From Arbacia lixula (lineage: Eukaryota > Echinodermata > Echinoidea > Arbacioida > Arbaciidae): a stretch of DNA of 64,000 bases. The position numbers and the translations under genes were made by a program. The stretch covers positions 19,598,925 through 19,662,924 of the forward strand of contig OZ022591.1 of the NCBI GenBank assembly GCA_963669155.1, given 5' to 3'. This document shows positions 29,801 to 53,000 of the stretch, one piece after another. How positions within the stretch are numbered: the first letter of the stretch is position 1; every line of letters begins with the position of its first letter. Below the pieces are notes generated by a model. The model worked only from the letters and a program-made list of their open reading frames with translations. It made no database searches and was not told the DNA's origin.

Positions 29801-32800
29801 ACTGTGTATATACACAGTCACATGTACAACGGATAGAGCGTCTCCGCACAGTGATTTGGAGACCGCTGATTGGTGCATCGCGTATATCACTTTTTGACCA
29901 CGTATAGATAACGATAACGATATCCAGTCACGTTGTCCGAAACCCTGAAGCCGATTGACTTTGTGCACGTTGCAATAGACTCTACAGATTCCAATGAGCA
30001 CGTGATGCCATATTGAAACTAATTCTTAAGATTTTGATGGAAAAGCAAGAAGTAATCGAAATTCGTTTACATGTACATGTGCGGTATCGGTGAGAAAATA
30101 GATTCTCCGAGAATACCTTCCATAATTAATATAAAATATAGGAAAGTGAAATTCTAGGTCAAATTTGGTACGAGGTGATAGAGGATTGCACACTTGTTTT
30201 GGTGGAGTACTGTTTGGGGAAATGGAAGGCTTGAACTGTGCATACTTTTTCATTCATAAATTGGCTCTAGGCAGTGGCCGGATGACGTCATGTAAAAAGC
30301 AAAATGTACACGACCGCTAGCGTTCGCACTCCGCTATCCGTTGTACACAATTTGTCAATGTGCTGTCGATGCATCGATGTTCTGTCGGCACAAAGCCATT
30401 GAACACCGGCTTCTGAAAAAATCGATATGACTCAGGCTTATAGTGTACATAGCAAGTTTTCCATGCATTAAGACTTAAGAGGACAAGATTTTACTAAATT
30501 TTCAAGATTTTGGCCATACTGCAGTGCTGGGGGTGAGGCATGCCAGTGGACAGAACACAGTCAACTTTATCTAGGTGATTACTGTAATATTGTTTTTGTT
30601 TGTTTCTTTGATCTAAACAGGCTGGTACTCCAGAACCCGGTGGAGGTAAATATCGAGAATGTAAACTTAGATGAGGCAGGTGACAATAATGTCATCCAGC
30701 AGGAGCAGTATGAGTTCCAGGTGGAGCAGCTCCAGTTTGAGCCTCAGCGGCCGGCTCTCATGAGCTTCCCAACCATCCCTAGCTTCACCAGTGAGAGTTC
30801 GGTAAGGAGCCCTTCTGCAACTCTAGGCCTTCATATACCATGATACCACTATATTAAAGCAGGTAGAAACAAGCATTGAGATGAACACAAACCACACATT
30901 TGTTAAGTAGTATATCCTTCATCAATATATTCCAGTTCATTGATTGGTTGAAAGGGTGTCACATGACCACAAATAGATAAATTATTCGAAGGAGGAGACC
31001 TCAGAGGGAAGTTAAAGGGCATATACTGTACTGGGAAGGCAAAAAAGCCTTCAAAAGGTAATTGTTAGCAATCTTCTTGCCAATGGTCTGAAATTTATTT
31101 GCCCTCAAATGATCCATATTTGGAGTAATTAATGATTAATGATTAAATCCTCAAAATGTTCGGGCCGAACATTTTAAGGATTTGTGATTTAATCACTCAT
31201 TTCTCAAAATGTACAGTATATGCCCTTTAAGTGCTTTTTTGTGACATCAGAGGGAAAAAAATGTACTATTTCATGACGTCATGTCAAAAATATATTTTTC
31301 TTCCCTCTGGACTATCGGTGATCGATACAATTTTCATTGATTCATCCCAGGTAAATGCGCGACACGCAAAATCTACATGATAGATTTCTTCCCAGCTGCT
31401 TTTTGGTATTTTTGCGGAAAATCATTGGGCGCGCTGCCGGTACTCCCGCGGTGTTGCGGCCGAGGTGCAACTTGAATTTCTATTTGTTTGCTAAAGCCGC
31501 AGGAAATAACAAAACATCTGAATCGGGCTCCTGCGTTTGGAGCTTAGCGCATGGGCACTATATTACAAGGTCCATGGTAAGGATTAAATTAATGAACAAA
31601 GGATATATGAAGGATATAAAACACATATTTCATGATCTTTATTCAGGAACTTTGTGGAATCTATTGGTCCCATCGGTGAAGTGGAGGGTGTTGACCTGCA
31701 GTCTCCGGGAGGGAAAATAGTACCGCACGCCCTCCACTTAACCTCGGTACAAATAGATCCCCAGATCCACAATCCACAAGATCCCTCATGGTCATGAAAT
31801 ATTTGTATAATATACTTCAATTGAACAAATATACGCTGAAATTTGTTTGTAATTAACCCTAATACTCGGGGGGGATTTTTGTTGTTACTTCTTTTTTTTT
31901 TTCTCTCTGATCCTTCCAGCACATTTTGATACCAAATTTATGGCGACTGGACCTACCGTGTGGGTGTCAGATTACGTTTACCAAACACATGTCACTGAAA
32001 GATTGCTGTTTCTCTATATGACTGTGTATAACCCTATGGACATAATCAGGAGCTTTTCCATTTGATGTAAATACTTTTCTGGTATCATCATTGTTTCAAA
32101 TATTGTAAATTATTACCACACACACACACACACACCCTCACACACCCACACACCGTCAAACACCCACATAAAAAAAATACATTTGACGAAAAACAAAGAA
32201 ATACATAAGGAAATTGAAAAACAATGAAATACATTAGAAATAATTACCACTGCCTATTTTTTACTTTCAGGGATTGATGAGGGAGTTACGAAAGACATTT
32301 GTACCAAAAAATTGCTATTACTGAGGCTTTATTTAGTGACAAATACCAAAATCAATGATTTCTTGCATAAATTAGCATAATTCTTTTAAAAAAATCAAAG
32401 GATTTCCATAAATTTAGCTATACAACTTTGGAGACGACATAATTCTTCACCCTTGTGCAAAATGTTGATGCGAATGGGCGACTTATGGCCGAGATCTAAG
32501 GGGGGGGGGGGGGGGGGGCGGGCCATAATGCCCCTACACATTTAGGTCTTTTATAATTATGCACATACTTAAGAAACAATTTTTACTAATTAATCGATTA
32601 AAACATACTCCTTTATTGAATAGTGTGGTTTTTACCATGGGTGAAATAATTCCCATCACAGCTTCATTGATCATCATAGTCCCCTCTTGGCTGTATACAA
32701 GTATGATTAGTCCATTGTTGGTTACAAGGGGTGTGAATATTGAGACTAATGAAAGTGTAATTTCTCATGGAAAGAATTTGGGAATTACGAGCTTTGTTCT

Positions 32801-35893: not shown

Positions 35894-38800
35894 AACCCTC
35901 AACATCAGGAAAGGGTTAAGAAATGACAAATGCCCATTTGAACGCGAAATAGCAATCCAGTCTTGCTTGAAAAAGGCCTTTGTCGTGACTGCAGCATTTT
36001 GTATCTTCTGCCGTCTTTGTAGTACAGCCCCAGTTTGAACAAGCTGTTTGTGGATCGAGATAAACCATGTCCGATACAGTTCAAGACATCTCACCCACCT
36101 CCCGCAAACTCTTACATCCGGGTGCTCCCTATCTTCAAGCAGGCAGAGAACTTGGCTGAGGTTGTGTCCAGGTGCCCCAATCATATCGGCACCCAGGAAG
36201 GTATGTACACTGGGCCTAGATCAATAAACACAGAGGGAGAAGAAGAAATGCCCATTCTTTTCTCCCCCTCCTGGCTCCTTGCCCTGGACCTGATGTATAA
36301 ACAGAGACGCCTACCAGTACCATAAAATCCTATTAAATACAATTTATATGCCTTTGCCATGAAGTAGCCAGCGTGGTGTAGTGTTATTAATCAGAATAGT
36401 GTAGTGGTGATACTAGCAGAGGTAGCACCCTTGATCTCTTATCAGCTGCATGCTCATGTCATTTGGGTGTGGATAAGGGACACTGGCCTTTCAGTAATAC
36501 TTTAACTCTCACTTATAGCGCCGTCGGCCACACCACGGTACCTCTCCTTGGCTGGGGAGCTAAACTAAGTGGAGAGTATCAGTGCTGATCTTGATGAGGT
36601 CAGTGTAAAGTGGATGTTACTCCTTAAGTGCACAGAGACTGAAGTGGTGGAAGAGGCAGACAACCACTAGAATTGGTCAATGGCTGTGAAGGCATGCCAG
36701 CAAGATGTGTGACACATCCAGGGCACTCGCTTCACAACATAGGACTTGTGGCCAGTCACTGTGGAAGGGATTGCGATCAAATTTTTTCAACTTATACAAA
36801 GAGAGGATATTCAGAGACATTGACGACATGAAGGGAGAGAATGTAGGAAGAGTGAACATCAACAAACTGAGATATGGAGACGACGCAGTCTTGTTAGCTG
36901 AAAGTAATGAAGACTTACAACAATCAATAAATGTAGTAAATAAAGGATTGAGAGAAAGAAGAGAGGACGAGGGCGAATAGGAATTCAGTGGATAGGCAAT
37001 ATATCCCTCATTGATATATTCCAGTTGGTTGATTGGTTAAAAACTGTGTCACATGACCACAGATATTTCAGCTATGTCAAGCGACAGAAGCTCCAGGGGA
37101 AGAAAAAGACTTATTTCGTGACGTCAGAGAGAAAGAAGATGTTTTTTCCTGACCTCATTTTAAAAATAGTCGCCCTTTTCCCTCTATCTCTATCGGTTCA
37201 TCTTGGGTAAATGCGCGACATGCAAATTCTACAGGATACTTCGATTTCAGCTTCTTTCCTGCGTTTTAGTGGAAAATCATTGAGGCTAAGTTACAGAGAA
37301 TGTGTCAGAAGGCACACAATTGAGATGTGGCGGTAGCTGAACTGCGGAGAGTAAATGGCTTTTGAAAGAAGAAATATGGCGGTAAGATATTTATGCATCC
37401 ATCACGAAGAGGCCGGAGGCCTTCACGTTTTCAGGTTGTCCGGTTGTCCGTCATCCATCGATTCCGTATATGCAATTAATATCTTGAGAACCGTTCACCA
37501 TATTTGCTTCAAACTTGGTCTATGTGTGCATTTGCATGAAACCAATGAAGTGTTTAAAATAGGGGTAATTTCTGATTGACTTCAAAAGTGAAAGGTCGAT
37601 GAATTTGTAAAAAAAAAAAATGCCCCCAAATGATGTTTTTCCCAGTAAATCCAAATCTAATGATTCAATTCCAACCAAACATGATACAGAGAATGAACAC
37701 GACATGGACTTAGGCTCATGACATATTTATAATTTTTCTCATTAAATCCAAATCCAAATCCAACCAAACATGGTATGATGGATCACTGCATGGAGATAGA
37801 ATGATGACATTTTGGTTAAATTTCTGAAAGATCAAAGGTTATGATTAATTTCACCAAAAATTGGTTTAAAGATTGCCAAAGTATTTTTTTCAAATAACTG
37901 AATTGAAAAAAGACAATTTTAAACAAACTTGATGCAAGGGTGGACGATTACATTTAGATTCGTTAGATTAGAAGTCAAAGAAGTAAGAGGTCAAAGGTCC
38001 ATAAACGTTGCGAAACTTGGCTAATCATGGCCAAAAATTTGTTTGCTAATACTAGAAATTTAATGGTACATTGCCAACCAAACGTCTAAGTTTTCTGAGA
38101 AGATTATCAATGTCACCCACATGAAGGTAAAATAAGGAGCGACAAATGTGGGCTTTATAGGCAGGTGGTGTCTCTATAAATGAGTCGCTAAAGCAGGTTT
38201 TACTGTACTGGAAACCCTGACTGCAGTATGATGTGCTGATTTGTCTTGTCTTGTCTCGCAGAGCCGTCAGCCAATCACCTGGTGCTGTGCAGCGACCCCA
38301 ACACGCAGTACTTCACAGACCCCTTGAGCTGTCGCCACAGCCTGTGTGTGCCCTACAACTGCCCCCAGGTGGGCACCGAGTTCTCCAAGTACCTGTTCAC
38401 CTTCAGATGCTTTATCTCCTGCGTTGGCGGGCTCAACAGGAGGAAGATTCAGCTCGTCTTCACCTTGGAGGACGAGTGAGTTCTGCTGTCTGGAAGTCCA
38501 ATCTTTATTTCTTTTAAAAACAACAGGGCCCTGTTGCAATAAACGTAACATTGATGGCAACTCTGCTATCATTGACAGCTTTTATGGAAACCTTGAATTT
38601 GATGAGCTGTTGATTGATGTTACCATGGTAACAGATGATGACATGGTAAACTTAAGGTATGCAACAGGGCCCAGTTCATCAAATTAAAAATGCAGACTGG
38701 CCCTTATCAACAACAAACAATGAAAGAATCAAACCTATCAAACTTGTCAACATATTTATTTCATTGGACCTTCAAAATGTCCAAGTACTTGTATATGAAT

Positions 38801-41800
38801 CTTACAAGTGCTTAGCACGTGCTTAATCTTAGTCCTGTTTGATTGGCTGCTTTATTCAGGAATAGCCGTGTACTGGGAAGACGGGCGCTGGATGTCCGGG
38901 TGTGTGCATGTCCAGGCAGAGACCGCAAGGCAGAGGAGCGGCAGTCGGAGAAAAGCAAGGCATCAACGAAGAAGCCAGTGAAACGAGGTGAGGAGTGGGG
39001 AGAGGTGCTGCTGAAAGGATGTTGTTTGTATGGTGAGGAAGTATGTCAAGAGTAGATGGAGCAGTATGGTGAGGAAGTATGTCAGGAGTAGATGGAGCAG
39101 TATGGTGAGGAAGTATGTCAGGAGTAGATGGAGCAGTATGGTGAGGAAGTATATCAAGAGTAGATGGAGCAGTATGGTGAGGAAGTATGTCAGGAGTAGA
39201 TGGAGCAGGCATTGGCATGGTCACAGGAAGGTTGCCTGTTCTCCTGTCCTCTTCTCTTTGAGTCTAGTGTACAGGTATACATGTGCAATTTCAGTTGAAA
39301 AAGTTTCCCAGTTTTGGTAACTACTTTTGAGTGTAGCCTTAGGTCTATTATAGCCGTAAAAGTTTCCATTCTCGATATTTCCTATTAACATCTGGGGTGA
39401 TGGATAGTTGATGTATTCTTCCAGGAAGGTATGTGTGTAGGTGCTCACTTCACTGTTACATTTTTTTAAGACATCCAAATGTGTTCTCCACATGGCTTGT
39501 GCAAATCTTGCTCTTTTGATCAGGAGGACCACCATGTAATTAACGTGGAGTAGTTGTTGCTATGTTGGGTAAACATTGGGTTGTTGGTGGAAATATTGAT
39601 CATGAAATGTTGAATATTAGATCACCCAGTCCAATGCACAAAACGAAATGGTACATCTTGATACGTTTTTCAAACTTGTAGGAGCCACAAAGCATTCATA
39701 ATCTTCACAAATTACTCAAGAGGATGTTACACCTTCATATGTTTGTCTCTCAACTAATTGATTACCATTGGCATGAATATGTGTAGTATGCCATTGGTGT
39801 TTGCCAAGGACTGGTAATGTAAGCGTTAAATCAACTCTTCCAACTTGCAGGAGCCACAAAGCAAGTGACATCATCCGTCGGGCTCACCTCCTTCACCAAG
39901 AAGAGGAAAGTCGACGACGAAGTTTTTACAATCACAGTGAGTCCAAGAAGAATCCTTCACTGTATTAGTAGGGCATTTCATGAAAGTTGTCAATGCTGAC
40001 ATTTTCAGTGAAATCCTCAGTTTTGATTGGCTGAGAGGCACTAGCCTCTGACTGTTTCTATGGTAACTGTCAGAGAAAAAGATGACTTGTCAGTGGTTAC
40101 AACTTTCATGTAATGCCCCCCAGTAGGGCTCTCGCCAGGATTGGTTTGCTGTCAAATTAGACACCTTGCACTCAGCCATAATTAGGCAAAAGAACATAAC
40201 CCCAAATATCATATTCTGAGAAGAACGATTATAAATAGATGAGATTTGGGACTTTCACCATTGGAAAGAGCTCATCTTATTAAACGAAAATTCCTTCTCA
40301 ACTAAAAAGTAAAAAAAATTGGGTTACGCTCTTTTGCCTTTTGCCTTTTTTACGGCCTTTTTTGCGGCCTTTTTTACGGCTCCTTTTACGGCCGCACTGA
40401 CAGGGCCAATTTCAACGTTGTCCTGTGTCATATTTGTACACACATACTGTATCTGATCATGAGAATGTGCGCATGTGGTATGCAGAGATGCCAACCCTTA
40501 CGATTACCATCCTTATCCTCCCAATATCTTTTTGCACTAAACAGTACCATAGACATGCCTGAGAAATGTTGTGTGCTGAGTTGAGTATGTAAGCTCAATT
40601 ATGTTAGCTGCTGCTGCATTCTACATAAAAGGCAATGACACATTTGTCTAAGTGCTGTAATGCAGCTAGCCACACTTGCGATATGCTCTGAGCAGACAGG
40701 CTGCCTGCCATGCATGTGGCCGCTGGACTTTAAACTCTGAGTCAAGTTGGGCGCTGAAAAGGTTGAGGACTAATTTGGTGTAACGGGTGGGTAGGTAGTG
40801 ATAGAGAATGTTGGAAAATTAGCTAAAGATGACCCAAGAGATAGTCTCAGAAGTTAAAGACCAATTACAGTCTCCAGTACAGGTTTCCTCCAAATCTGAA
40901 AGAGGATTTCATCATTCATATTGTACAGTTTGCAGTCTTGATATTCGTTTGAGCATGTAGGTCGTGACAATCTTGGTAAGCATGTTAGGAGCAATCAGCA
41001 CACAGACATAGCAAAGGCAAGATCTGGAGCTGAGAAATGCACATGATACACAATGGATGTTATGATTACTATCTTGTAAAGCTAGTTTTCCTTTGAATTG
41101 ATATCACCTTGGTTATTTTGTTTTCTCACAGGTTCAAGGGAGGGAGAAATATGAACTTTTGATGAAAATCAAGGAATCTCTAGATTTGATGGACTTTGTG
41201 ACTCCATCTCAGGTCTCCCAATGCAGGCAACAGCAGGCACAGCTAAATCAACAGTAAGTCAACTTGCTGCTTTCTCCCCCTTCTCTCTTTTGACTCTCCT
41301 CTTCTTCTAAGGCTAATTTACACTTAACCCATCATTTCTGATTTTTTTTTTTTATTTGTGTAAAGAAATGGAAGCATTTGACTGCCAGCAAAATCCCAGT
41401 AGTGCACATGGGCTGCATGTATGCCAGGCTATTCAATGCATACAGAAGGCATGAATCGCTGGCATAAAATCTCTAGGGTTAGCGATTATTTGTGTGCAAT
41501 CAGTTACTCTGGCCAGACATCGTGGTATCGCCAAAGAGAAACTTACTTTACAGAACAGGATGTTTTGAAATTGATTTCTTGGCCGTGCTGGGAAGTAGTT
41601 GCCTAGCAATTTTCATGTTTTAGTGGCGATGTGAGAAACAGGCCATTTTTTTGCTGCAAAGGTAAATGGCCTTTTGTTCTGTTTGAACCATTTTTTCTGT
41701 TGTGCCAGGTCATTCTTGTGTCGTAACTGGTATTATGGTCATGGCTCATTGTTGCTATGTATCAGTTTCTTTTGTTACATTTGTCTGGATTTGCTTGTGT

Positions 41801-44800
41801 GCCTGATTATCATTGTTTGTGTGTGATTCTGTAAGTTTGTACGTCCATCTTGATGTTTTTCCATCTATGTGTCTGTCTATGTTTTTGAGCTATCTGGGTG
41901 TGTTTATATCTCATTTCCAACAATTTTGTGTTATGTATCAAGAATCCATCTGGTTGTGTGTGTGTTTGTGTGCGACCATGCAGTTAAGTAAGCCATTTTA
42001 TCCCCGCAAGATGGTCCACAATTGAATGTTGGTATTCTCTAGAGAGAATATTGCTGGCTAAACATGGACGGAACGAAACTTGTCAGAATTATTGTGTATG
42101 ATCTGTTGGCAATTTGACCAGAAGTGCTGATAGTGTGGAGTACCTACCCCTTCACTGCAGTGCCTTATCCACAAAAGCTTAGCATGCTCAAGATTTCATG
42201 TGATCTACCTGCCAAGACCATCCTGGCTTATCAAATGATAGAAAGCCTTTTCTGTGACCCAGTTTAGAGTCTCTGGCCATCTTACCCTGTTATTCCCTTA
42301 CATCGCACTTCTAAAGTGGTGACACAATTGTGAGCGTTTTGACACAGCCGTGTCACTGCTGTTCAGTCACAGTGGTATGTTTCACAATATGTGATGATGT
42401 GCCAGTTATACCTTAACGTTACTCTGCGCACAGTGTGTGCTCCTCAAATTGATCATGAGGCTCTGGTTTACACCGGGTTGCAAAAATTTTAAATCACCTC
42501 GGAATTTAAATCACTTCATGGGGTTTTCAAGTAGAGGGAGGTACAAATTCATCCAAATAAGTTTAACGTTTCAAAGAAATAGGAGTAGACCAAGTGGCTG
42601 TGAATTATTATTCTTTTTTAAAAAGAGGTCTGGAATCTTTGGTGGTCCTGTCCCTTCAAACAGAGGAAAAGATGGCTGATTTGTATCCATTTTGGACAAA
42701 GTACCACATTTTGTGCCAAGGGCCTATGAATATTAAACTCTATTAAAAATTATTAAAGTTATTTGCCCTCAAATGATCCACATTTGGAGAAATTAGTGAT
42801 TAAATCACAAATCCTTTAAGTGTTCTGGCCAAAATTTGAAGATTTGTGATTTAATTACTCCAAATTTAGATCATATGAGGGCAAATAACTTTCAGCAAGT
42901 TTCTAAAATGGACAATACATGAATTTAAGACCATTGGTAAGAAGATTGCTCAAGATTACCTTTTTGAAGTACAGTATATTCCTTTTAAAGATATAAAGGG
43001 ATTTGTGCACAAGATTGTTTCATTTACATCTTTTTATATCGTTTATAGTTTTTAGCACCTTCGTAATGATATTGCAGAGCAAAATAAAGGTGAACTGACA
43101 AGTAACTTAATCTTCAAATTGGCAATAGGTTGAAAAGGTTGAAAACCACAAGTTTGCTCTTCAAATAACCACAATTATTATCGTAGATTTTATTTTGTTA
43201 ATTTTACAATAGAATGTACTTCCCACTTAAGATGCAAATTCAAGTGAAATAAAATTTGTGTTGCCAATTTGAAAGAGAAATAATGATCAGTGTTGCTGTA
43301 CAGGGGTTTAAGTCTTTAACAAAGATAGAAAAACAGTACGTATGCTTCATGAGGGTCTCTTTTTGTTTCTCGTTTCCCATCCGGCTGCAGGATCCGTGAA
43401 GAGCTCCACCAATTCTACCGGAAAAAGACTAAGAAACGGAGTGGAAACGAGAAACAAAAATAGAACCCTCTTTTTCTCTCCTGATTATTTGTACACCACA
43501 TCTTTCCTTTTTTGAATTCCACGAAATATTTCCCCTCTTTCATGAACTGCACTCCCTCTTGTCGCTGTGCAGAATACTTGTCAGCAGATCATAAATGGCT
43601 AATAAGCTAATACAAAGGATTGATGTGGTAGCAAATGAACCTCTTTGGATTCAACTCATCCTGTTTATCCACCTGGTTAAAAGATAAATATATTACATTC
43701 ATTACATCTAATGAAACATCATAAACAATATTGCCATTGACCAATTTGTGTTAGTCAACAACAGATATTAGTCATTCAGTATATTTTGTATTGCAGTCAA
43801 AATATCTCTGTCAGTAAATATTAAATATTAGATTATTACAACATTACAAAATATTTATTAATAGATATTAATTGTTGCAGTTTTTACATTCAAAGATTTA
43901 ATGGTGGTGTATCCCTTTTGGAGGTTGAAACTATGTTGTCAAAAGACATTTCGTAGACATATATGTTGACATTTAGTACTAGTTGGCTGGGCCAATGCTG
44001 CTAATGAGATAAGTTCTAGAATTCCGACTTGAATCCTAACATGCACAGGTATGAGTGCGTCGGCACAAATTGTGTGCACAAGGTCACTTTGCATGGTTTA
44101 AACACATGAGATACAGCCGTGTGTATTTTTTACCATGCCAAATCTAACAATTCTACCTCACCACCAAAAAAATGCACCGTTGGTTTCATAGAATTGGCAA
44201 CAACAAAACAATTCAAAAAAGAAGAAACGTCATGCGAAAAGTTTACCAAATTTACTAATGCATGGCTATGAATTTCCACACATTCGGCAAAGAAATCACT
44301 AAATTTACTTTTTACTTGCAACAGATCCTAGATTTTCATAATTTACATGTTAATGGAAGTTAGAATGCATTATCGGTAAAATTATTAAGGAGGAGAATTC
44401 TCGGGAGATTTTTAAACGCATTATGTAAAATGCATTGAGGTGAGTTTATCACTTGTTGTGAGTTGGTGACAGCACCTATAACTGTAGGTAGGTTGTGCAA
44501 CAGAGATACACCAGGTACAGTAATATTCAGGTACAGTACTAAACAATAACCCCAAGGTACAACTGACAAATGTAGTGTATAGGAAGTATTCTATATAGGA
44601 CCAACCAATGTTTTAGGTATCGGTTCTTTTAAAACTTCCCTGAGCGCAGTTCATTTTGCTCTGAGTAAAGTTAATCATACCATGCTCTTTATGATATATC
44701 ATCCTTTGTGTGCCGTACAAATATATCCCTATTTGACTAGAGTGTATTTATTGTGAATAAATGCACTTTACAGAGTTAATTACTCTTATACTCATTAAGA

Positions 44801-47800
44801 CATTGTGATGAATCACATTTTCCCTGTGATTCTCTTCTATCAGTACTGTACTTTGAAGGTGGTTTGGACCAAGCGCTTCCTTTCTGTTATCTGTCGGTTG
44901 TTACAAGAAAAGTGCATATGTTCATATTCTTATGCCAGATTTTAAAGCATGGAATGATCGTATTTAAGGTGTATGTCAACTGTCTTCCTCCTCATGTATT
45001 GATACATGTTCTGGACTATGCATGGAGGCCTACTGTAGCTGCAGGGATTTTTGAAGCGTACTTAAAGGGATAGTTCACCCTGAAATTATTTTGGTTTCAA
45101 TGCAAGCAAACACATAAAAGAATTTAGTGAATATTTGACGAAAATCGGTCAAAGGAAAAGAAAGTTATTCGATTTTTAAGTTTTGATTTTGTGACGTCAC
45201 GTGTGAGGTGCTCTCCCCCATATGTTGTGTACATTTTTTTTGGAAGATGTCCATTTTCTCAAAAGGATATTTACCATTTCACATGTGCATTTCGTATATC
45301 ATTTAGGTATACATGTTTTTACACGTTTTTACAAAAATATGTATTTCTTCATCAAAGAACATAAAAAGATAAGTTATGGAAAAATTGGTACACAACATAT
45401 GGGAGAGCACCTCGCATGTGACATCACAAAATCAAAACTTTAAAATCAAATAACTTTCTTTTCCTTTAACCGATTTTCATCAAGCCTTCAATGATATGTT
45501 TCTTTCATGTGTCTCCTTATATTGAAACCAGAATTATTTCAGGGTGAATGATCCCTTAAAGGGAAAACAAAACATTTTAGAAACTTGCTGAAAGTTATTT
45601 GCCCTCAAATGATCCACATTTGGCGTAATTAAATCACAAATCTTTGAAATGTTCGGCCTAAACACTTTGAAGATTTGTGATTAAACAATTATTACTCCAA
45701 GTGAGGATCATTTGAGGGCAAATAACTTTCAGCAAGTTTCTAAAATGGACAATACATGAATTTAAGACCATTGGCAAGAAGATTGCTAACGATCACCCTT
45801 TTGAAGGCTTTTTGTCTTCCCAGTGCAGTATATTCCCTTTAAACAAATGTACTGCTACTCCACAATGTCTTCATATCTTAGAAAGGGTGTTAGGTTGACT
45901 CATATTGTTATATTTTATGCATATTTCAAAGTAATATTTCTAGAGAATAACACAAAATTGCATTATTAGTCACCTACAATGAGAATTATAAGCATAATTT
46001 CTATATGAAAAAGAAAATCCTTATAAAGGTATGACTTGTAATATTTTGAAGATATGTGTGTGCTATGAAATGTCATTTTGAAATGACTTGAAGTTTCTGC
46101 TTTGATGTCATGTCTAATTTTGTTGATAGTGAGTAATTGGTAATATACGTTATTGTATGGAGGTGATTAATCAAAGGGGAAGTCTTCACAGAGAATAAGT
46201 CCCTTGCAAAAAAGGCAGGAATCTCAAAGAAACATAGAGGTGAAAGTTACAGTAAAATTAGACCAGTAGTACAGAAGTTACGGTTATTTGAAGTTTGGCA
46301 TTCCTGATATTGACATATGTGATGTTATAGGCGAGGTCAGAATGCAATGCATCATGGGTAAAGCACCTTTAATCCCCCCTGCTTTTATTGAGAAGAACTT
46401 TTTATTACAGTGAGCTACCCCTTTAAGAGCAGGAGGAGACATGTTTATTACTAAGCTAGCGGAGAGATGTATGCATTACATTCCAATATGCTACTAAACC
46501 AGTCTTCCTAACATAGTTTTCAAAAACCGTTCAGCTTTTGTCCCACATTTATCCAGATATTCAGGAAATTGTGAGAAACATGGTGGGCTGTTGTGGGTTT
46601 TACCACAATTATTTCAGCACAGATATTCATCTTCCAATGTGTTCAGCATGAGAAGAAAAACAAAAACATAAAAACATAAAAACATAAGATTCATATCCAT
46701 GAGTTGTATTATTTATTTGGATTTCAGACAACCACATAGAGGTGGAGGTATGTTTATTCGTACAATAGGTATTCTTACATGCGTGTTGCATGTATGATGC
46801 CTTTTTTCTCTGCCTTGTAAAGTCTTCTTTTATTATGTAGATATGTAAATTTGTAAAAATCCAAAATAAAAAGATCAACTTTAAGCAAAAGTGCTGTTAT
46901 TTTGTTTGTAATTTTGTGTTATTTCAGAAATTTAGAGAAAATTATTTATGAAATTAATTATAAAATATGTTGTTGTGTGCGTCATGAGCTTGCTGTATGT
47001 TTGTCTTTGTTTTCAATGTGAGCTACATGCGTGTGTGTGTGTGTGTGTAACTGCAGGAGAGAAAATAAAAGTGGAATTGTCAAACTGATTGGTAAAAGTT
47101 GTTTAGTTCTTGCAAATGTTTGGGGTTCTATGCTGATTATGAAGGTAAATGTGACGTACATGTATTTACATTAGATCTCAAGTAAGATTTGTCTACATAC
47201 TGGTACTAGTGCTGCACTGATATCGCCTTTTTGTCTCACCGGAACGAAGATCGGCTGAGACCTACATGTAGTAATCACTTGTCCTGTTAGACTGTTTTAA
47301 AATTGTTAAAGTTTTGGTAGGACTTGCTCTTATTTCTTTATTCCTGCATCAATCAAACGAGACCTTCATTTAACGCTGTATCCAAAGGAAGGAGTGTATT
47401 TCCCAGAAAGGAGGAAGACGCAAAAAGACACAATGCTGGCTCTTTGCCATGGATTTGTAAGGGATTCGAACCCATAGCCACTGTACCTATTGAGCCACGC
47501 TGCTCTCCGTGGTCAGGATGGGAGATGTAGAGCCATGCCCAACAGCCTGCAAGCTGAGCCCAGGTCCTTGGCTGTGGACTGCATGGACAACTGAGTCTGT
47601 TTCCAACTCTGGTCTCTTAACAACTGTCTGGTAACAAAAGAAAGGGGAGAGGGCATAATCTTGTATTATCAAACATAGTTGTTACCAGACTCAGGTGTGT
47701 CCACAGCATAGAACATTGCCTACCTGGAAACCAAAGTGACCCCAACATTGTCTCTCTCCTTCCCTTCCTCCCTGCCTACAGGCTGCAGGTACCGAATGGT

Positions 47801-50800
47801 GTGCCTCCCAACGTAGCACGGGTCAGCTCTTTCCAGGCCACCCCACCCTCAACCACTGCCACCCAGGGGAACGCACTCGGCCACCCCAACCCCACCCCCA
47901 TCCAACCCACACCGAGCCTCACACGGAGCAGCACCTTCCCACAGCAACAACAACAACAAAACACTCAGCAGCAGCAGCAGCAGTACCCGCTGCAGCAGAC
48001 TAACCTACCCATGATGCCTCAGCAACAGCTTCCATCCACATCTACAGCACTCCAGCGTCAGGACACCACCATTTGTAAAGGTTTGCTTGATCATGTTCTT
48101 ACTTCTGGGAATGAAGTTGTTAAGTGCCATTGAGTCGTTCTTGACTCCTGCTGTTCTATGCTGTGCAAGCAGGCTTGGTTCCCTCAAATATTTTCCAGTT
48201 TCTTTAGGAATTCCTTCTAACCATCTATTTCTCTGTCTTTCTTTTCTCATCCTTCCTTGTACTTTCCCAAGCATGATGTCCTGCTCCTTACCTTTTGATC
48301 TGATAATAAAGGGGTATCTTGGTTTTATCTCTTTAAGTATTGATTTGTTTGTCCTCTTGTCAGTCCATGGAGTCCTTGACATCCTACGCCAGCACCAAAG
48401 TTCAAATGCATCTCTATCCTTCCTCTCTGCCCTTTTTATTGTCTTGCCTGAATGTGGTTCGGCTGAGACCTAGTAATCACTTTTCCTGATGGTCTGTTGG
48501 TATGTTGGTCTGGTAGTCTGTTAGTCTGTTACAAAAATATATTTCTTTATTTCTGCATCAATTGTGTTCCTACTTGGTACAAATGAGCCTTGGGTAATAC
48601 CACATGTGTGCTGATGAGGATGATGAGGTGAAAGGACATTTAGGGGTCAAAAGGTCAAATGATATGAGGCCATGGCGAAATCAGGCGATACTCGTGGTTC
48701 GCGAACCACCTTGTTATTGTCCAGCATTTACTTCCAAGTAATACCATAGGGAATAGTAATGTATTTGTCATCTTTATCTTAGGTGTCTTCTTAATATCTC
48801 TATGTTTTGCAGAGTTAATAGTTACAGTGACAATACAACTCAGAATTATGTTCAAAGAAGCATCGTTTAAATCCCTAATACGGTTGGGTCTCAAAATCCA
48901 GTGGTGCTTGCTCTACATCTCCCTTTCTCTCTCCCTCCTACACCCCCATTTTCTCCCTCTCCCTCTGTAACTATGTTCTTTCCATCTCTCTCTGTCGCTC
49001 TCTCCGACTGACGAAAGCCTTTGATGGAGTTGTGACCACGCCTCTCTCTTGTTCTCCTTGCCTCATGTAGATGAAGCAGATGGACCCAACCCTAACATCG
49101 AGCTGGATGCGATCCCTACCAGCCAAGGCTTTGGGTTGCCTGGCAACCTGCAACTAACCCCGCCCTGCCAGACACAGAACCACTCCGCAGCAAACCCCGA
49201 CGTCTCCATTGGAGGGTAAGGGTTCGTGGGTGAAAGGGAATCTGTGTTACAATGACATATTTTCTGCACATGTGTAATAGGATCTGCGCCAATTGTTCAA
49301 TTGCCATCATGTCTACTCCTATCTAATCTTCCAGCATAAGCAGGAAGCTACCCTTTAAGATCGATGCAAACTAAACAACTATCCTGAAGTGGTTGTGAAA
49401 ATTTGACTGAAGCTTGATGCTCCAAGTTCAAGCCCATCCGTGGCACTTGTGTCCTTCAGCAGAAATACTTAATCCACATGACTGCTCTTTTACATTGGTG
49501 TATAATTGGTACCCAGTAATAGTGGAATGAGTGTGCCTTAGTGGCTCCCATGATTCTGCATGATTTCTAGGGATTAGACATGCTTCACAAAGACTTGCAA
49601 GCATCTGGTGACTGGGGTAATGATATACAAATAATGCATAGTTGTGAGTGCGTTGGGGCTGTGCAGCGTTAGGTAGGAGGTGTTTACCATACACTGCACG
49701 GCCTCAATGTCACGAACGTTAAAACGGTGCATTATTTGTTTTATGAGACACAGTACTCTACAGTATTTTTCAGTGTATAAGACACATGTTTTTATGCCTC
49801 TGCCACGAAGTGGCCGGAGGCATTATGTTTTCGGGTTGTCCGTCCGTCCGTCCGTCCGTCCGTCCGTCCGTCCCGTCCGTCCCGAATCCGTTTAGGCAAT
49901 ATCTTGAGAACCGTTCAGCAGATTTGCTTCAAATTTGGTACATGTATGTATTGCATGAAATTAATGAAGTGTGCAAAATTGGGGTCAAATCTGATTTAGG
50001 TCAAAGGTCAAAGGTCAATGAACTTTGTAAAAATTGCCCAAAAATGACCTTTTCCACAATAAATCCAAAAACAGGGATGCAATTCTCATTAAACATAGTA
50101 CAAAGATGGATTACTCTTTGGGGATAGACTGGGGAAATTTTTGGTAAAATTCCTGAAAGGTCAGAGGTCAAAGGTCAATGAAATTTGTGAAAATTTGCCA
50201 AAAATTGACCTTTTTCGCAATAAATCCAAATCCAAGGATGCAATTCTCATTAAATATGGTACAAAGATAGATCACAACTTGGGGATAGACTCCTGAAATT
50301 TTTGGTAAAATTCCTGAAAGTTCAGAGGTCAAAGGTCAATGAACTTTGCCCAAATTGGCTAGAGATTGCCCCAAACTTTAAATTTTTCACAATAAATCCA
50401 AATCTAATGGTGCAATTCCAACCAAACATAGTGGAACGATGCATCACTACTTGGGGGTAGACTGGTGACATTGTTGGTGAAATTTGCTGGAAGGTCAGAG
50501 GTCAAAGGTCAATGAACTTTGCAAAAATTGATATTTTTCACAATAAACCCAAATCCAAATCCAATGGCGCAATTCTAACCAGACATGGTACAGAGATGTA
50601 TCACTTCATGGAGGTAGACTGGTGAAAGTTTGGGTAAAACTCCTAAGAGTTCGAGGGTCAGAGGTCAATGAACTTTGCCAAAAATTAGCTAAAAATTGCC
50701 CCCAAAGTGATAATTTTTAAAATATATCCAAATCCAATGGAGCAGTACCAACCAAACAGGGTGCAAAGATGGATCACTACTAGAATGATGACATTTTTGG

Positions 50801-53000
50801 TGAAATTTCTCAAAGGTCAGGGATCAAAGGTCAATGAACTTTGCCAAAATTGGCTAAAAATTGCTCCCAAACAGATATTTTTCACATTGAATCCAATACT
50901 AATGATTCAATTCAAACCAAGAGGTCAAAAGTCAATGAACATTGCCAAACTTGTCTAAACTTGAAAAAACAGAATGTTTCATTTCACATTGGAGCAATGG
51001 TACATTGCCCACCAAACATACATATATTCTGAGAATAGCAAAGAGGCGGAGGCATATTTATCGACTGCGTGGCAGTCGAATTGCTCTAGTTTCCCTTGAA
51101 AATCACGTCAAAGCCCGGGTGCATCTTATACACGGCGTTAGCAAAAATTGGGTCTTTCAAACCAAAACATATACACATGTATGGGACTATGCATTGTGTG
51201 ACATATAAAAAAGTAGATGGCTTTGATAGCCCGATACAATTGTTTACTGGTAATACAATCTCAATCACATCACCAGCATACTTAAAGTTGGGGTGCGTCT
51301 TGTACGCCGAAATTTATGGTACTTAGATCCTGGCCTGGCTTTGATCCACTCAGATGCTTGGCTGAGCAATTCCTGCATAATCTGCTATACAGACCATAGA
51401 TGGCAGCATATGAAAAACAATAAAATTCCTAACTGGGCCCAATCATGCCAAACTCATTTGGCTACTACAGTTCTGTGGCAAATTTTGACGTACAATTGGA
51501 CCAGGCGGGTGTTTCACCAAGCTGTTCGTAAGTTACGAACGACTTTATGAACGACTGGTGATCCCTTCTTGTGCTAAATACGATACCACACTTTGTTCAT
51601 TGAGAATCTGATTTAGCACAAGAAGGGATCACCAGTCGTTCATAAAGTCGTTCGTAACTTACGAACAGTTTGGTGAAACACCCCCTATGGTTCACAAAGC
51701 CCCAAATGTTAACTGTGTGCAGCTGGTTAAGCGCTGAATAAACACTGCATATTATTATTATGAATATGATTACAGCAGCATTTTGCTTGGCAGTGAGAGG
51801 CTTGAATGTGGATGCCATTGTTTGATGCCATTGTTGGATGCCATTGTTTGATGCCATTGTTTGATGCCATTGTTTGATGCCATTGCTTGTTGTTGCCTCA
51901 GGTGGCTGGGCAGACTGGGCTACAAGCAGTATGCAGACATCTTCCACCAGAAGGGCGTGCACACCGTGGAGCAGCTGGAAGAAATCAGCCTGGAGGTAAG
52001 CTAGGAGGAGGAGTCATATGTGGCTTTAGAAGATTCAAGAAAAATAGAATCAAGCAAAAGGCCTAGGAGGCACGATTGAAAGTGTCATAGTGCAATTTAG
52101 GATTTTGGAATTTAAGATTTTGTACACAAATCTATGCAAAATTTAATTTTTGACTGATTTTGGCCTGACATGCAATTATATAAAATTGCATAAGCTCAGG
52201 AACTATTTATCAAATTTGTTTGAACTTGGTCTCAAACGGGAGGAAAAAATCACTGAAGGGCGTGTCACGATTTGTAGCAATTGCATGTCAGTTATGGATT
52301 TTGTACGGGGGGGGGGTGGGGGGGGGGGTGGGGGGGGGGGGGGTTGTCAGAATGACCCTCCCCAGTCAGAATAGAGTAAAGAGAATAATGGGGCCCACTC
52401 TGTAACTGTACCTCTCCCACAGTTCCACAGTGTTGTAATAAGTTTGGTACTGAAATGTTTAAATCATTGTTAAGTATTTTATAAAGAGTGGGTTCAGAAT
52501 CAAATGAGGAACAAACCCTGACTTATACAATTAAAGGAGATTTATGAATGTTTCAAGTAAAATCATTGATATGATTACATGAGAGGTCACTTTCCACTAT
52601 TCTTCAGTCGGAAGTGCCTATAAATGGAAATATGATGTCACCTTCTCACAGAGTAGTCCGACCGATAGGATCATGTCATCTGTGTTGGCCTTAAGAGCCA
52701 TTTGAGGATTTCACTGTGCTAGTTGAGAAAGAAGCTATATGATGAATGTTGTTTCTGCCCTGCCTCCCCCAGGACCTGGCCCACATGCCCCAGCAGGCAC
52801 GGGAGACCCTGTGGCGGGCCGTCTTGGACCTCAAAAGTGGTCTGCACATGGGCACGCCGTCCATGGCGCGGATGGGTTCAGGCACCTCCACTGCCAGCCT
52901 ACATTCCAGTGGGTCGCTGAGTGGGAGCCAGGTCTACCGCGCTACTCGCTTCACCCTCAAACAAGTTCTGTCCTTCAAGGTGGAGAAGGAGGATGATTAA
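26794..53000 (+). CDS. p53/p63/p73 family transcription factor, whole gene (13 coding exons plus one alternative last exon)
   Basis: Sequence-specific tetrameric transcription factor of the p53 family; relatives act in the nucleus on DNA damage, cell death and germline or epithelial integrity. The joined exons give about 679 residues in the long form: transactivation motif (19-26), Pro-rich linker (to about 154), DNA-binding domain (about 155-340), KKRKV nuclear localisation signal (372-376), tetramerisation domain (about 379-415), Pro/Gln-rich linker (426-572), SAM domain (about 568-630) and a p63/p73-like C-terminal segment (about 636-679). The length is close to TAp63-alpha and TAp73-alpha. 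A short form ends at residue 448. All introns begin GT and end AG, and all phases match. The SAM domain and TID-like tail make it p63/p73-like, while the N-terminal motif looks more like p53. It is probably the single ancestral-type gene of this animal. That point is inference. Confidence 0.95.
28395..28855. repeat. Family C repeat (AGGTCA-rich), diverged copy
   Basis: GGTAGGGCAATGAACTGATT followed by repeated AGGTCAAAGGT motifs. It is closely similar to 58325-58640 and related to 37403-38165 and 49792-51065. Confidence 0.7.
28856..29342. mobile_element. MITE family A, copy 3
   Basis: Starts TATAGTCCACCCTAAAATG, includes CACAACATATGGGTGAGCAC and AGATCATAACTTTCTTACCC, and ends with TTGAAACCAACTTAACTTCA. 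It lies in intron 1, directly after a family C repeat. Confidence 0.75.
29463..30440 (-). mobile_element. 1 kb TIR element, copy 2 (inverted relative to 16022-17061)
   Basis: Ends TAGGCCTGAGTCGAATCGAT and CGATATGACTCAGGCTTA, with the same inner sequence as copy 1 on the opposite strand. It lies in intron 1, 180 bp before exon 2, and is 978 bp against 1040 bp for copy 1. Confidence 0.75.
30621..30801 (+). CDS. Coding exon 2: acidic and Gln-rich N-terminal region
   Basis: Follows an AACAG acceptor, completes glycine 33 and encodes residues to 93, ending in phase 0 at GTAAGG. The segment is acidic and glutamine-rich ([16 protein letters not shown], then [17 protein letters not shown]), as expected for a second transactivation region, and ends Ser-rich. 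There is little direct family similarity, so this exon rests on its frame, its splice sites and its match in phase to exon 1. The frame stays open past the donor, so the donor rather than a stop defines the end. Confidence 0.8.
30893..31445. repeat. Family D repeat, interrupted by a family B MITE
   Basis: ATATATTCCAGTTCATTGAT, GTGTCACATGACCAC and, after the insertion, GGTAAATGCGCGAC and GCGGAAAATCATTG are shared in order with 36985-37300, which lacks the insertion. Confidence 0.75.
31016..31230. mobile_element. MITE family B, copy inside family D
   Basis: Begins TAAAGGGCATATACTGTACT and ends with the inverted ACAGTATATGCCCTTTA, so the ends are exact inverted repeats. The inner palindrome has ATTTGTGATTTAATCAC-like arms. 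Confidence 0.85.
31446..33585. other. Intron 2, central part, no gene
   Basis: (CA)n at 32118-32160, a G-run at 32500-32519 and a T-run at 31889-31901. No exon in frame with neighbours is visible, and no alternative first exon for a delta-N form could be supported. Confidence 0.45.
33586..34375. repeat. Pyrimidine-only minisatellite, about 790 bp
   Basis: Almost every base on the + strand is C or T. Recurrent units of about 28-36 bp combine CTCTCTGTCCCCCA with CCCTTCTCCCCTCTCTTTCC. A block of about 180 bp (33935-34120 and 34118-34300) is itself duplicated. Long frames on both strands are artefacts of this composition. It lies in intron 2. Confidence 0.95.
35001..35185 (+). CDS. Coding exon 3: Pro/Ser-rich linker
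   Basis: Encodes residues 94-154 plus two bases of Asn155. It begins [16 protein letters not shown] and then runs rich in Pro, Ser and Thr ([15 protein letters not shown]), like the proline-rich region between the transactivation and DNA-binding domains of p53-family proteins. The base composition is clearly GC-richer than the surrounding intron, which helps mark the exon. Donor GTAAGA, phase 2. Confidence 0.88.
35205..35314. mobile_element. Short MITE in intron 3
   Basis: The left end GGGGCCATATTCATGAAA and the right end TTTCATGAAAATGGTCCCT are inverted copies, about 110 bp overall. It starts 20 bp after the exon 3 donor. Confidence 0.6.
35473..35554 (+). CDS. Coding exon 4: start of the DNA-binding domain
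   Basis: Encodes Asn155 to Thr182: [17 protein letters not shown], then SKSVSWT. It aligns with the first strands of the p53 and p63 core domain (NTDYPG and KSATWT in vertebrates). Lys177 corresponds to the loop L1 lysine, K120 in human p53. Acceptor TTACAG, donor GTAAGT, phase 0. The exon is only 82 bp. Confidence 0.93.
35840..35892. repeat. C10/A42 mononucleotide block
   Basis: A C-run directly followed by about 42 A, 130 bp upstream of exon 5. An A-tail of this kind could also be a retroposed end. Confidence 0.9.
36023..36200 (+). CDS. Coding exon 5: DNA-binding domain, first zinc ligands
   Basis: Encodes residues 183-241. [16 protein letters not shown] and EVVSRCPNH are family hallmarks. 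Arg232 corresponds to human p53 R175, and Cys233 and His236 to the first two zinc ligands (C176, H179). The acceptor TTTGTAG is preceded by a weak pyrimidine tract. The donor is GTATGT, phase 1. A C-run/A-run block lies about 130 bp upstream in the intron. Confidence 0.95.
36775..36965 (+). mobile_element. LINE reverse-transcriptase fragment
   Basis: [20 protein letters not shown], then [20 protein letters not shown] matches the region around the catalytic [YF]-x-DD box of non-LTR reverse transcriptases (here YGDD). Only about 60 residues remain, so it is a dead scrap in intron 5. It is probably the same broad LINE type as the pieces at 48087 and 60985. Confidence 0.75.
36985..37300. repeat. 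Family D repeat, uninterrupted copy
   Basis: Shares CCTCATTGATATATTCCAGT, TGTCACATGACCACA, GGTAAATGCGCGACA and GTGGAAAATCATTGAG with 30893-31445. Confidence 0.75.
37403..38165. repeat. Family C repeat in intron 5
   Basis: GAGGCCGGAGGCCTTCACGT, GGTTGTCCGTCATCC and ATATCTTGAGAACCGTTCA match the head of 49792-51065. The body has degenerate ATCCAAATC and GGTCAAAGGT units and ends TTGCCAACCAAACGTC. Confidence 0.75.
38262..38475 (+). CDS. Coding exon 6: core DNA-binding domain
   Basis: Encodes Glu242 (split) to Asp312. It contains RHSLCVPY, then C291-x3-C295 (zinc ligands, human C238 and C242) followed by VGGLNRRKI. Arg301 and Arg302 correspond to R248 and R249, and Gly298 to G245. This one 214 bp exon covers what vertebrates split at an intron between their exons 6 and 7. 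Donor GTGAGT, phase 2. Confidence 0.95.
38525..38672. mobile_element. Short MITE in intron 6
   Basis: AGGGCCCTGTTGCA at the left and TGCAACAGGGCCC at the right are exact inverted copies, overall about 148 bp, starting 50 bp after the exon 6 donor. Confidence 0.75.
38860..38987 (+). CDS. Coding exon 7: end of the DNA-binding domain
   Basis: Encodes Glu313 (split) to Arg355. It carries [19 protein letters not shown], the family's C-terminal DNA-contact helix: Arg326 is R273, Cys330 is C277, Arg333 is R280 and Arg335 is R282 of human p53. A Lys/Ser-rich hinge follows ([14 protein letters not shown]). Acceptor TTCAG, donor GTGAGG, phase 1. A 36 bp tandem repeat begins 40 bp past the donor. Confidence 0.95.
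39027..39206. repeat. 36 bp tandem repeat, five units
   Basis: Five nearly identical 36 bp units starting GTATGGTGAGGAAGTATGTC and ending AGATGGAGCA. Since 36 is a multiple of 3, frames stay open on both strands, but the repeat lies in intron 7, 40 bp past the donor. Confidence 0.95.
39851..39936 (+). CDS. Coding exon 8: nuclear localisation signal and start of tetramerisation domain
   Basis: Encodes residues 356 (split) to 384. [14 protein letters not shown] holds a classical monopartite nuclear localisation signal (KKRKV, 372-376). DDEVFTIT is the first strand of the tetramerisation domain; p53 has EYFTL and p63 DDELLYLPV at this place. Acceptor TTGCAG, donor GTGAGT, phase 0. Confidence 0.93.
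39971..40119. mobile_element. Short MITE in intron 8
   Basis: GGGCATTTCATGAAAGTTGT and, inverted, ACAACTTTCATGTAATGCCC bound about 149 bp with a small internal palindrome (GGCACTAGCC). Confidence 0.75.
40330..40395. repeat. Short tandem GCCTTTTTTACG units
   Basis: Four to five degenerate copies of GGCCTTTTTTACG in intron 8. Confidence 0.75.
41132..41253 (+). CDS. Coding exon 9: tetramerisation helix
   Basis: Encodes residues 385-424 plus two bases of Gln425. [19 protein letters not shown] closely matches the p63/p73 helix (GRE-x-[YF]E-x-L-x-KIKESLEL). A Gln-rich extension follows ([10 protein letters not shown]), as in p63. Donor GTAAGT, phase 2. This donor can join either 43391 or 47782, which both complete Gln425 in frame; the choice decides the protein's ending. 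Confidence 0.95.
42753..42990. mobile_element. MITE family B, copy in intron 9
   Basis: TTATTTGCCCTCAAATGATC and its inverted form (GATCATATGAGGGCAAATAA) flank an inner AATCACAAAT palindrome. It ends ACAGTATATTCCTTTTAAA. Confidence 0.8.
43391..43463 (+). CDS. Alternative terminal coding exon 10S: short basic tail
   Basis: After an acceptor reading CGGCTGCAG, the frame continues as [19 protein letters not shown] and then EKQK with a TAG stop at 43461-43463, giving a 448-residue protein without SAM domain. The tail extends the tetramerisation helix and ends in a Lys/Arg cluster, reminiscent of the basic C-terminus of p53, though not clearly homologous. The exon needs no donor: a 3' UTR would follow, with AATAAA candidates at 44756 and 46865. 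The second has a GT-rich stretch downstream. Expression is inferred from structure only. Confidence 0.82.
45063..45558. mobile_element. MITE family A, copy 4 (best preserved)
   Basis: Starts TTAAAGGGATAGTTCACCCT and ends AGGGTGAATGATCCCTTAA. The long arms share GTGAGGTGCTCTCCC and CATATGTTGTGT, inverted on the other side. It abuts a family B copy. If the short transcript runs to 46.9 kb, both MITEs are in its 3' UTR and could form a hairpin. Confidence 0.85.
45559..45842. mobile_element. MITE family B, full copy
   Basis: Starts TAAAGGGAAAACAAAAC and ends CAGTATATTCCCTTTAAA. The inner arms TGAAAGTTATTTGCCCTCAA and TTGAGGGCAAATAACTTTCA are exact inverted copies. Confidence 0.85.
46865..46925 (+). 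terminator. Candidate poly(A) signal of the short transcript
   Basis: AATAAA at 46865-46870 is followed within 20-50 bp by a T/GT-rich stretch (GTGCTGTTATTTTGTTTGTA), the usual layout of a strong animal cleavage site. An earlier AATAAA at 44756 and a later one at 47064 are alternatives. If used, exon 10S plus 3' UTR would be about 3.5 kb and contain two MITE copies. Confidence 0.45.
47225..47350. repeat. Family E repeat, fragment
   Basis: GATCGGCTGAGACCTACATG and TAGTAATCACTTGTCCTGTT are shared with 48455-48715 (TTCGGCTGAGACCTAGTAAT). Confidence 0.6.
47430..47520 (-). repeat. Possible tRNA-derived SINE head
   Basis: On the minus strand GAGCAGCGTGGCTCAATAGG (A-box-like) precedes GGGTTCGAATCCC (perfect B box). 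The spacing is too short for a working tRNA, so this looks like a decayed SINE. Confidence 0.45.
47782..48080 (+). CDS. Coding exon 10L: Pro/Gln-rich linker of the long form
   Basis: After CCTACAG it completes Gln425 and encodes residues to about 524. The segment is Pro/Ser/Thr-rich with two glutamine runs ([17 protein letters not shown]), like the linker between tetramerisation and SAM domains in p63/p73. Two donors fit in the same phase: GTAAAG after 48074 and GTTTGC after 48080. They would give TTIY-EAD or TTICKD-EAD. The first has the better donor consensus. A LINE fragment begins a few bases past the exon. Confidence 0.88.
48087..48418 (-). mobile_element. LINE C-terminal fragment, antisense, next to exon 10L
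   Basis: The minus frame reads [29 protein letters not shown] and [20 protein letters not shown], the well-known C-terminal end of RTE/Jockey-type LINE polymerases (FEMWCWRRML, WTDK-x-TN, GKVEGKRGRGR). Only this end is present. It abuts the exon 10L donor region. Confidence 0.8.
48455..48715. repeat. Family E repeat, longer copy
   Basis: From GGTTCGGCTGAGACC to TCGTGGTTCGCGAACCACC, the last part being a perfect palindrome (GTGGTTCGCGAACCAC). It includes AGGGGTCAAAAGGTCAAATG. Confidence 0.6.
49071..49215 (+). CDS. Coding exon 11: linker before the SAM domain
   Basis: Encodes about residues 525-572: [20 protein letters not shown], then [19 protein letters not shown] and NPDVSIGG. It is Pro/Asn-rich with no recognisable fold until the last residues, which lead into the SAM domain. 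Acceptor TCATGTAG, donor GTAAGG, phase 2. The GC content and open frame contrast with the pyrimidine-rich intron just upstream. Confidence 0.88.
49792..51065. repeat. Family C repeat, full copy with internal tandem units
   Basis: The head GCCACGAAGTGGCCGGAGGC is followed by (GTCC)n and CTTGAGAACCGTTCAGCAGA. The body has about six units of 150-170 bp, each with AATAAATCCAAATCCAA, ATGGTACAAAGATGGATCAC and AGGTCAGAGGTCAAAGGTCA. The tail is AAGAGGCGGAGGCATATTTA. It lies in intron 11. No coding. Confidence 0.85.
51508..51688. mobile_element. Hairpin MITE with nearly perfect 72 bp arms
   Basis: The left arm from GGGTGTTTCACCAAGCTGTT to CTTCTTGTGCTAAAT is matched by the inverted right arm with a single mismatch by my count, around a loop of about 30 bp. 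The near identity means recent insertion or repair between arms. It lies in intron 11, about 215 bp before the SAM exon. Confidence 0.9.
51813..51892. repeat. 13 bp tandem repeat before the SAM exon
   Basis: Six units of GATGCCATTGTTT with one or two changes, ending about 10 bp before the acceptor of exon 12. They occupy the place of the pyrimidine tract and branch point. Confidence 0.9.
51902..51995 (+). CDS. Coding exon 12: first half of the SAM domain
   Basis: Encodes Gly573 to Glu604: [19 protein letters not shown] and then [13 protein letters not shown]. It aligns with the p63/p73 SAM domain (FLARLGCSSCLDYFTTQGL, then T-x-YQIEHYSMD). SAM domains are five-helix bundles for protein or lipid contacts. 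Acceptor TTGCCTCAG, donor GTAAGC, phase 0. A 13 bp tandem repeat ends just before the acceptor. Confidence 0.94.
52308..52343. repeat. G-run
   Basis: About 36 bases of G with three T interruptions in intron 12; potential G-quadruplex on the coding strand. Confidence 0.9.
52773..53000 (+). CDS. Coding exon 13: end of SAM domain, TID-like tail and stop
   Basis: Encodes residues 605-679 and a TAA stop at 52998-53000. [20 protein letters not shown] completes the SAM domain. After a Ser/Thr/Gly-rich stretch, [15 protein letters not shown] matches the p63/p73 transactivation-inhibitory segment (DAVRFTLRQTISF in p63). In p63 this segment folds back on the transactivation domain and keeps the dimer inactive; whether it does so here is unknown. 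Acceptor CCCCCAG. Confidence 0.95.
   Translation, partial: DLAHMPQQARETLWRAVLDLKSGLHMGTPSMARMGSGTSTASLHSSGSLSGSQVYRATRFTLKQVLSFKVEKEDD

Follow-up and report, generated by a model that had tools for sequence, protein, structure and literature searches.

The analysed window is a stretch of 64,000 nucleotides that forms part of contig C16; the assembly searched comprises 607 Mb in 590 contigs. The window carries a p53-family gene on the plus strand that extends from the ATG at 26794 as far as the stop codon at 53000 and has two alternative endings (Table 1). Nine exons, from the ATG to the donor at 41253, form a stem that is common to both forms. Joined to exon 10S, the stem gives a short form of 448 residues, and joined to four other exons, of which the first is 10L, it gives a long form of 679 residues. 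The introns of the gene are GT-AG, and both predicted proteins are open. The donor of the OD exon (CAACA/GTAAGT; slashes mark exon borders and joins throughout) is in phase 2 after codon 424, and residue 425 is a split Gln in both forms. A first-pass annotation of this DNA had described one locus with two alternative 3′ ends, which branch behind the OD exon to 10S at 43391 or to 10L at 47782 and both complete Gln425. We confirm this description: the coordinates hold, clean splice sites lead from the donor at 41253 to 43391 or to 47782, and with the donor in phase 2 after codon 424, either ending completes the Gln.

Table 1. Exons of the p53-family gene and the intronless copy on contig C4. Positions are those of the window unless a contig is named.
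Feature	Position	Strand	Remarks
Coding exon 1 (first seen)	26794..26891	+	ATG, transactivation motif; donor GTATGT, phase 2
Coding exon 2	30621..30801	+	AG/GT borders, frame joins
Coding exon 3, proline-rich	35001..35185	+	
Coding exon 4, DNA-binding domain start (..ASKSVSWT)	35473..35554	+	
Coding exon 5, DNA-binding domain (YSPSLNKLF..)	36023..36200	+	
Coding exon 6, DNA-binding domain	38262..38475	+	Join 36200/38262 also in C5 block
Coding exon 7, DNA-binding domain end	38860..38987	+	Join 38475/38860 spanned in C4 copy
Coding exon 8, basic linker	39851..39936	+	Both flanking joins spanned in C4 copy (gapped alignment at the 5′ one) and in C5 block
Coding exon 9, OD with p63-type second-helix region	41132..41253	+	Branching donor at 41253
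Coding part of exon 10S (basic short tail up to 43460, then TAG)	43391..43463	+	Junction 41253/43391 in C4 and C5 copies
Putative 3′ UTR of the short transcript	43464..43840	+	Motif scan alone; ATTAAA at 43820
Exon 10L, Gln/Pro-rich linker	47782..48080	+	No second copy found
Long-form exon 11, linker up to SAM	49071..49215	+	
Long-form exon 12, SAM first part	51902..51995	+	
Long-form exon 13, SAM end and TID-like C terminus, TAA stop	52773..53000	+	
p53 copy on contig C4 (L008)	C4:29797968-29798587	-	Intronless, short ending

Both forms belong to the p53/p63/p73 family. In each of them, Pfam detects P53_TAD at residues 8-28 (E 1.2e-4 to 1.9e-4), the P53 DNA-binding domain (DBD; PF00870) at residues 155-341 (E 2.7e-59 to 6.9e-59), and P53_tetramer (PF07710) at residues 372-411 (E 1.1e-17 to 2.2e-17). 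SAM_2 is confined to the long form, where it matches residues 570-621 (37.7 bits against a cut-off of 20.5, E 2.3e-9) and SAM_1 scores slightly below its cut-off; no Pfam match to SAM was found in the 448-residue short form. The p63/p73 layout that had been proposed for the long form is borne out by the SAM_2 match after the OD, while the resemblance of its C terminus to the end of p63, for which we call it TID-like, was judged by eye. A genome-wide family search, at its threshold, found a P53 domain or tetramerisation match elsewhere at one locus only, on contig C4; the fragments on contig C5 described below came to light only in DNA and protein searches. Within the window, no Rfam family reached its gathering score.

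We determined which kind of OD the two forms share. A sequence-based PDB search aligned it to the ODs of human p63 (4a9z) and p73 (2wqi), its best matches, through the Gln-rich second-helix region. Among chains named p53, those that matched only briefly (query 2-24) did so at E 0.015 or worse, and zebrafish p53 (4d1l), which is described as keeping the second helix, matched at E 2.4e-4. The second helix is described as absent in human p53 (PMC4155161). Thus the short form, as judged by this alignment, does not have an OD that stops before the second helix as that of human p53 does. Since zebrafish p53 has this helix and matches, the contrast holds against human p53 only and not against every p53. 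The first-pass annotation had called the short form p53-like. This is right in that, like vertebrate p53, the short form has no SAM; the OD, however, appears to be of the p63 type through the second helix, so that in this part the short form looks gamma-like rather than human-p53-like and TP63 gamma is the closer counterpart.

The tail encoded by exon 10S has 24 residues when counted with the split Gln, as had been noted, before the TAG that follows 43460. It holds nine Lys/Arg and three Glu, for a net charge of +6. In vertebrate p53, a basic C-terminal tail is encoded by the exon after the OD exon. The earlier statement that the basic tail of the short form comes right after the tetramerisation helix has to be corrected, as the basic cluster begins at residue 435, which is 24 residues beyond the last one of the Pfam tetramerisation match, and lies behind the p63-type second-helix region.

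The sequence before the 43391 acceptor is ..GGCTGCAG. Scored with a matrix made from the 12 other acceptors of the gene (which reach 2.5-10.7 bits when each is left out in turn), this acceptor has 7.2 bits and ranks 4th among the 369 AGs of the 6.5-kb intron; use of the top three would yield tails of 4-6 residues. Two further AGs, at 41504 (7.0 bits) and 41709 (6.5 bits), would give tails of 34 and 39 residues. Because these are nearly as good, acceptor score and frame alone do not single out 10S. A net charge of at least +6 is found in three of the 177 intron-AG tails of at least 15 residues, 10S included. We accept 10S as real because two other loci hold intronless copies with the exact 41253/43391 junction.

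One of these copies lies on contig C4, in minus orientation. The second half of the DBD, exon 8, the OD, and the 10S tail are contiguous in it across four parental joins, including 41253/43391, with an alignment that is ragged around the exon 7-8 join. Local alignment of the copy scored 196 with the OD followed by 10S, compared to 114 with the OD followed by 10L and 116 with the OD followed by retained intron. We therefore rejected an origin of the copy from the long form or from an RNA that retained the intron. Within the 60 kb fetched around the copy, we found no match to the long exons at E 0.1 and none to the first half of the DBD. The copy is now defective, as it carries a frame shift near exon 8 and has TGG at the site of the stop codon. 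We saw no poly(A) tract, and no exact flanking repeat of 9-20 bp, as expected of a target-site duplication, was present in the stretches compared; either could have decayed. The copy reads GRDWKTEE where the parent has GRDRKAEE, and the position of the R to W change presumably corresponds to human Arg282. It sits between candidate exons, read by eye, of a gene on the opposite strand; the hand-read candidate protein had no Pfam match above the cut-off.

The second set of copies, found by a DNA search with exon 10S, is at the start of contig C5 and consists of tandem 231-bp units, 16 in all, arranged in six blocks. In each unit, exon 8 is joined to two segments of the OD exon and these to exon 10S, which is included from its first base. 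Identity over exon 10S is 91-96%, and the 41253/43391 join (..ATCAACA/[G/C]ATCTGTG..) is present in 16 of the 16 units listed. Two blocks open with pieces of earlier exons. In the block that was displayed in full, the joins 36200/38262, 38987/39851, 39936/41132, and 41253/43391 are all seen, and the parental join 38475/38860 falls within a deletion.

The array that contains these units (C5:1-9007, L021) is of higher order, occupies the very start of the 29-Mb contig, and has other sequence between the p53 blocks. Two fragments, identical to each other, of an Eph receptor ligand-binding domain (PF01404, E 6e-41) are also part of it; they are 92% identical to C16:2819844-2820278. At C16 a single open stretch contains the Eph piece, so its C5 counterpart may or may not be RNA-derived. 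In Pfam searches of four C5 stretches, the Eph domain was the sole match apart from a p53 piece that scored below its cut-off.

A protein search with the OD and the short tail recovered the parent, the C4 copy, and the 16 C5 units. For the long ending, two of the four long exons were used as DNA queries and matched the parent's exons alone, genome-wide, and a search with the 254-residue protein of the long tail, in which only the best candidates were scored, likewise found only the four exons of the parent in the genome. Exon 10S and the OD exon, as DNA queries, had not picked up the diverged C4 copy, so DNA searches with the long exons could miss old copies too; the protein search gives better coverage. 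Thus, 10S follows at each of the RNA-derived loci that extend to the OD end (two of two). The copies show that a short mRNA was present in the germ line, but they are no proof that the long mRNA was absent. We conclude from the copied sequences that an mRNA with the 41253/43391 join was made and was copied into the germ line at two loci.

To understand how the copies relate to each other, we compared the parent, the C4 copy, and 2 of the 16 C5 units. Over 235 sites, with one C5 unit, differences numbered 74 between parent and C4, 27 between parent and C5, and 73 between C4 and C5; over 187 sites, with the second unit, the corresponding numbers were 53, 17, and 54. Since C4 is equally far from C5 and from the parent, while C5 is near the parent, the C4 copy is old and the C5 copies younger, and they most likely derive from separate RNA molecules. 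By these distances, then, the two sets of copies most likely arose separately.

Codon comparison of the parent with C4, from which exon 8 was excluded together with its frame shift, gave dN values of 0.17 in the tail (23 codons), 0.185 in the OD (41 codons), and 0.275 in the DBD (104 codons). The dN/dS was 0.093 in the tail, 0.095 in the OD, and 0.087 over all 168 codons, estimates that are rough because dS is near or past saturation (1.8 to 4.6), the tail codons are few, and a single pair of sequences was compared. Against C4, the 10S tail thus changes as slowly as the OD, over 23 codons and with saturated dS. Third positions account for 10 of the 17 differences in the tail (P 0.013), 19 of 32 in the OD (P 4e-4), and 56 of 109 in the DBD (P 9e-7). 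Such few changes at first and second positions, at this level of synonymous divergence, indicate that the C4 copy has not been neutral since its birth. We infer that it was in use as a SAM-less p53 retrogene for a long period before it broke. The first-pass annotation had let its two-ended reading stand or fall with use of the 41253/43391 join and conservation of the 10S frame in related species. The join was found in the intronless copies at two loci, and the frame has an excess of third-position differences against C4; as far as these copies can tell, both outcomes favor that reading.

The model that we favor, and hold to be highly probable, is that the window contains the single intact p53/p63/p73 gene found in the assembly of what is most likely an invertebrate deuterostome, with an alternative terminal exon of the TP63 gamma type that gives a protein of either 448 or 679 residues. 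That exon 10S is instead a chance open frame behind a cryptic acceptor, and the long form alone is real, is scarcely credible. The exon is short, and the AGs at 41504 and 41709 are about as good by acceptor score and frame, measures that fail to exclude a chance frame; the intronless copies do exclude it as far as past splicing is concerned, since the exact join is present at two loci, in all 16 listed units of one of them, and the frame is conserved against C4. It is somewhat less far-fetched, but still improbable, that the C4 and C5 copies are DNA duplicates of a paralogous p53 gene that lacks these introns, and so are not witnesses to splicing. The high divergence of C4, with its saturated dS and a dN/dS of 0.087 as in an old functional paralogue, would fit this origin, as would the failure to find a poly(A) tract or a flanking repeat at C4. 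However, C4 and C5 each lack introns at four of the parental joins, and C5 differs from the parent at just 27 of 235 sites. Moreover, whichever origin applies, the copies have a 10S-type tail immediately behind the OD.

A further alternative, which deserves more weight than these two although we consider it unlikely, is that the germ line mainly makes, or once made, the short form, with the long exons rare or confined to the soma. This would explain why 10S comes next at both of the RNA-derived loci that extend to the OD end and why a long-ending copy was not found. However, two events are few and sample germ-line abundance only, and the four long exons keep their open frames, GT-AG borders, and SAM domain.

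In the favored model of a TP63-gamma-type terminal exon, use of the 10S 3′ splice site and of a poly(A) site behind it would result in the SAM-less protein of 448 residues with its basic tail of 24 residues. Skipping of 10S, with splicing over 6.5 kb to 10L, would result in the protein of 679 residues with SAM and a TID-like end. The choice of ending would then be a contest of splicing with cleavage and polyadenylation. The first-pass annotation was right to set a 10S terminal exon against splicing over 6.5 kb; both partners of the OD donor are in frame at Gln425. Both forms are presumably made today; for the long form, support comes from its intact frames. By analogy with forms that lack the TID, the short form may be an open tetramer that is free of C-terminal inhibition.

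We looked for signals that could act on exon 10S. Between the 10S stop and 44756 (1.29 kb) there is no AATAAA, and the only related motif is the ATTAAA at 43820. The C4 3′ UTR was rejected as a guide to the short poly(A) site, as it has no significant alignment to the parental 10S 3′ UTR (P 0.48 in local alignment, 0.087 for the best sub-window, and 0.78 in global alignment). The ATTAAA is a possible poly(A) signal. Five TCTT/TCTCT motifs occur in 150 nt behind the 10S stop, a count that 1.5% of windows reach. Pyrimidine motifs before the 10S acceptor are not clearly enriched (6.2% of windows), and the windows densest in such motifs within the intron are at the OD donor, not at 10S. A PTB-like repressor might conceivably steer the choice of ending.

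The first-pass annotation had implied that a single locus with both kinds of ending would be new. This is not so, since TP63 is described as making SAM-less and SAM-bearing kinds from one locus (PMC10035508, PMC9091270). As in the published descriptions of TP63 gamma, the terminal exon lies between the OD exon and the next coding exon, provides a short unique tail and a stop with loss of SAM and TID, and would compete with splicing to a downstream internal exon. For TP63 gamma, PTBP1 is reported to repress the terminal exon at its 3′ splice site and cleavage site, with Ptbp1 acting likewise in frog, and the gamma peptide to be poorly conserved between human and frog, at 15 of 37 residues (PMC10035508). 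In contrast to this PTB control, PTB-like control is only suggested here. Also unlike TP63 gamma, with its tail of 38 residues, the 10S tail has 24 residues and is strongly basic, and it is part of the only intact family gene found in the assembly.

Molluscs offer a protostome case. Their p53 and p63/p73 forms (Mya arenaria, Loligo, Mytilus) come from one locus and have a common core with C termini that differ. Homologues of p53 and p73 in a clam were reportedly described by Kelley in 2001. Many molluscs are said to have a single p53-family homologue (PMC4155161). As for multiplied copies, the C5 array is like elephant TP53, but it differs in that its 231-bp fragments preserve a single splice form, from a gene that apparently predates the duplications. 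The elephant TP53 copies are retrogenes. Their number in the elephant genome is given as 20 (PMC5061548).

What is new here is an apparently pre-duplication case with physical evidence of splicing. A 2024 review describes the age of C-terminal isoforms relative to the duplications as an open question (PMC11551734), and a search of open-library literature, by title or start of abstract, found no report of a short echinoderm p53 form. If the animal is a non-vertebrate, this two-ended gene, the one intact family member found and with its splicing recorded in the same genome, offers a data point on isoform age that can be checked. The gene appears to be a pre-duplication deuterostome p53-family gene, and it may bear on how vertebrate p53 arose by loss of SAM. 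cDNA fossils in a genome can prove an isoform without an RNA sample, and retroposition of a short form is a concrete route to a SAM-less p53. We offer tentatively, as a view more likely wrong than right, that a gamma-type exon after the OD was ancestral in the single pre-duplication p53 gene, so that a SAM-less splice form would long have preceded vertebrate p53, which fixed that ending; the C4 copy would then be a SAM-less paralogue that was born independently by retroposition of the short mRNA, was under purifying selection for a very long time, and then broke.

The window also contains several repeats. Two copies of one repeat element, at 42755-42969 and 45591-45806, flank exon 10S; they have internal inverted arms and, over two stretches, share 91-95% identity. 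In the same intron as 10S, long inverted repeats are nested at 45061-45561 (122-nt arms, 80%; 62-nt arms, 84%). In the intron before the first SAM exon, an inverted repeat at 51507-51683 is MITE-like, with 78-nt arms that are 96% complementary and 21 nt apart. A tandem repeat of five 36-bp units containing GGTGAGG, at 39028-39208, starts 41 nt behind the donor of exon 38860-38987 and resembles that donor. Between coding exons 2 and 3, at 33437-34452, the pyrimidine-rich sequence has long low-complexity Ser/Pro/Leu open frames in three frames.
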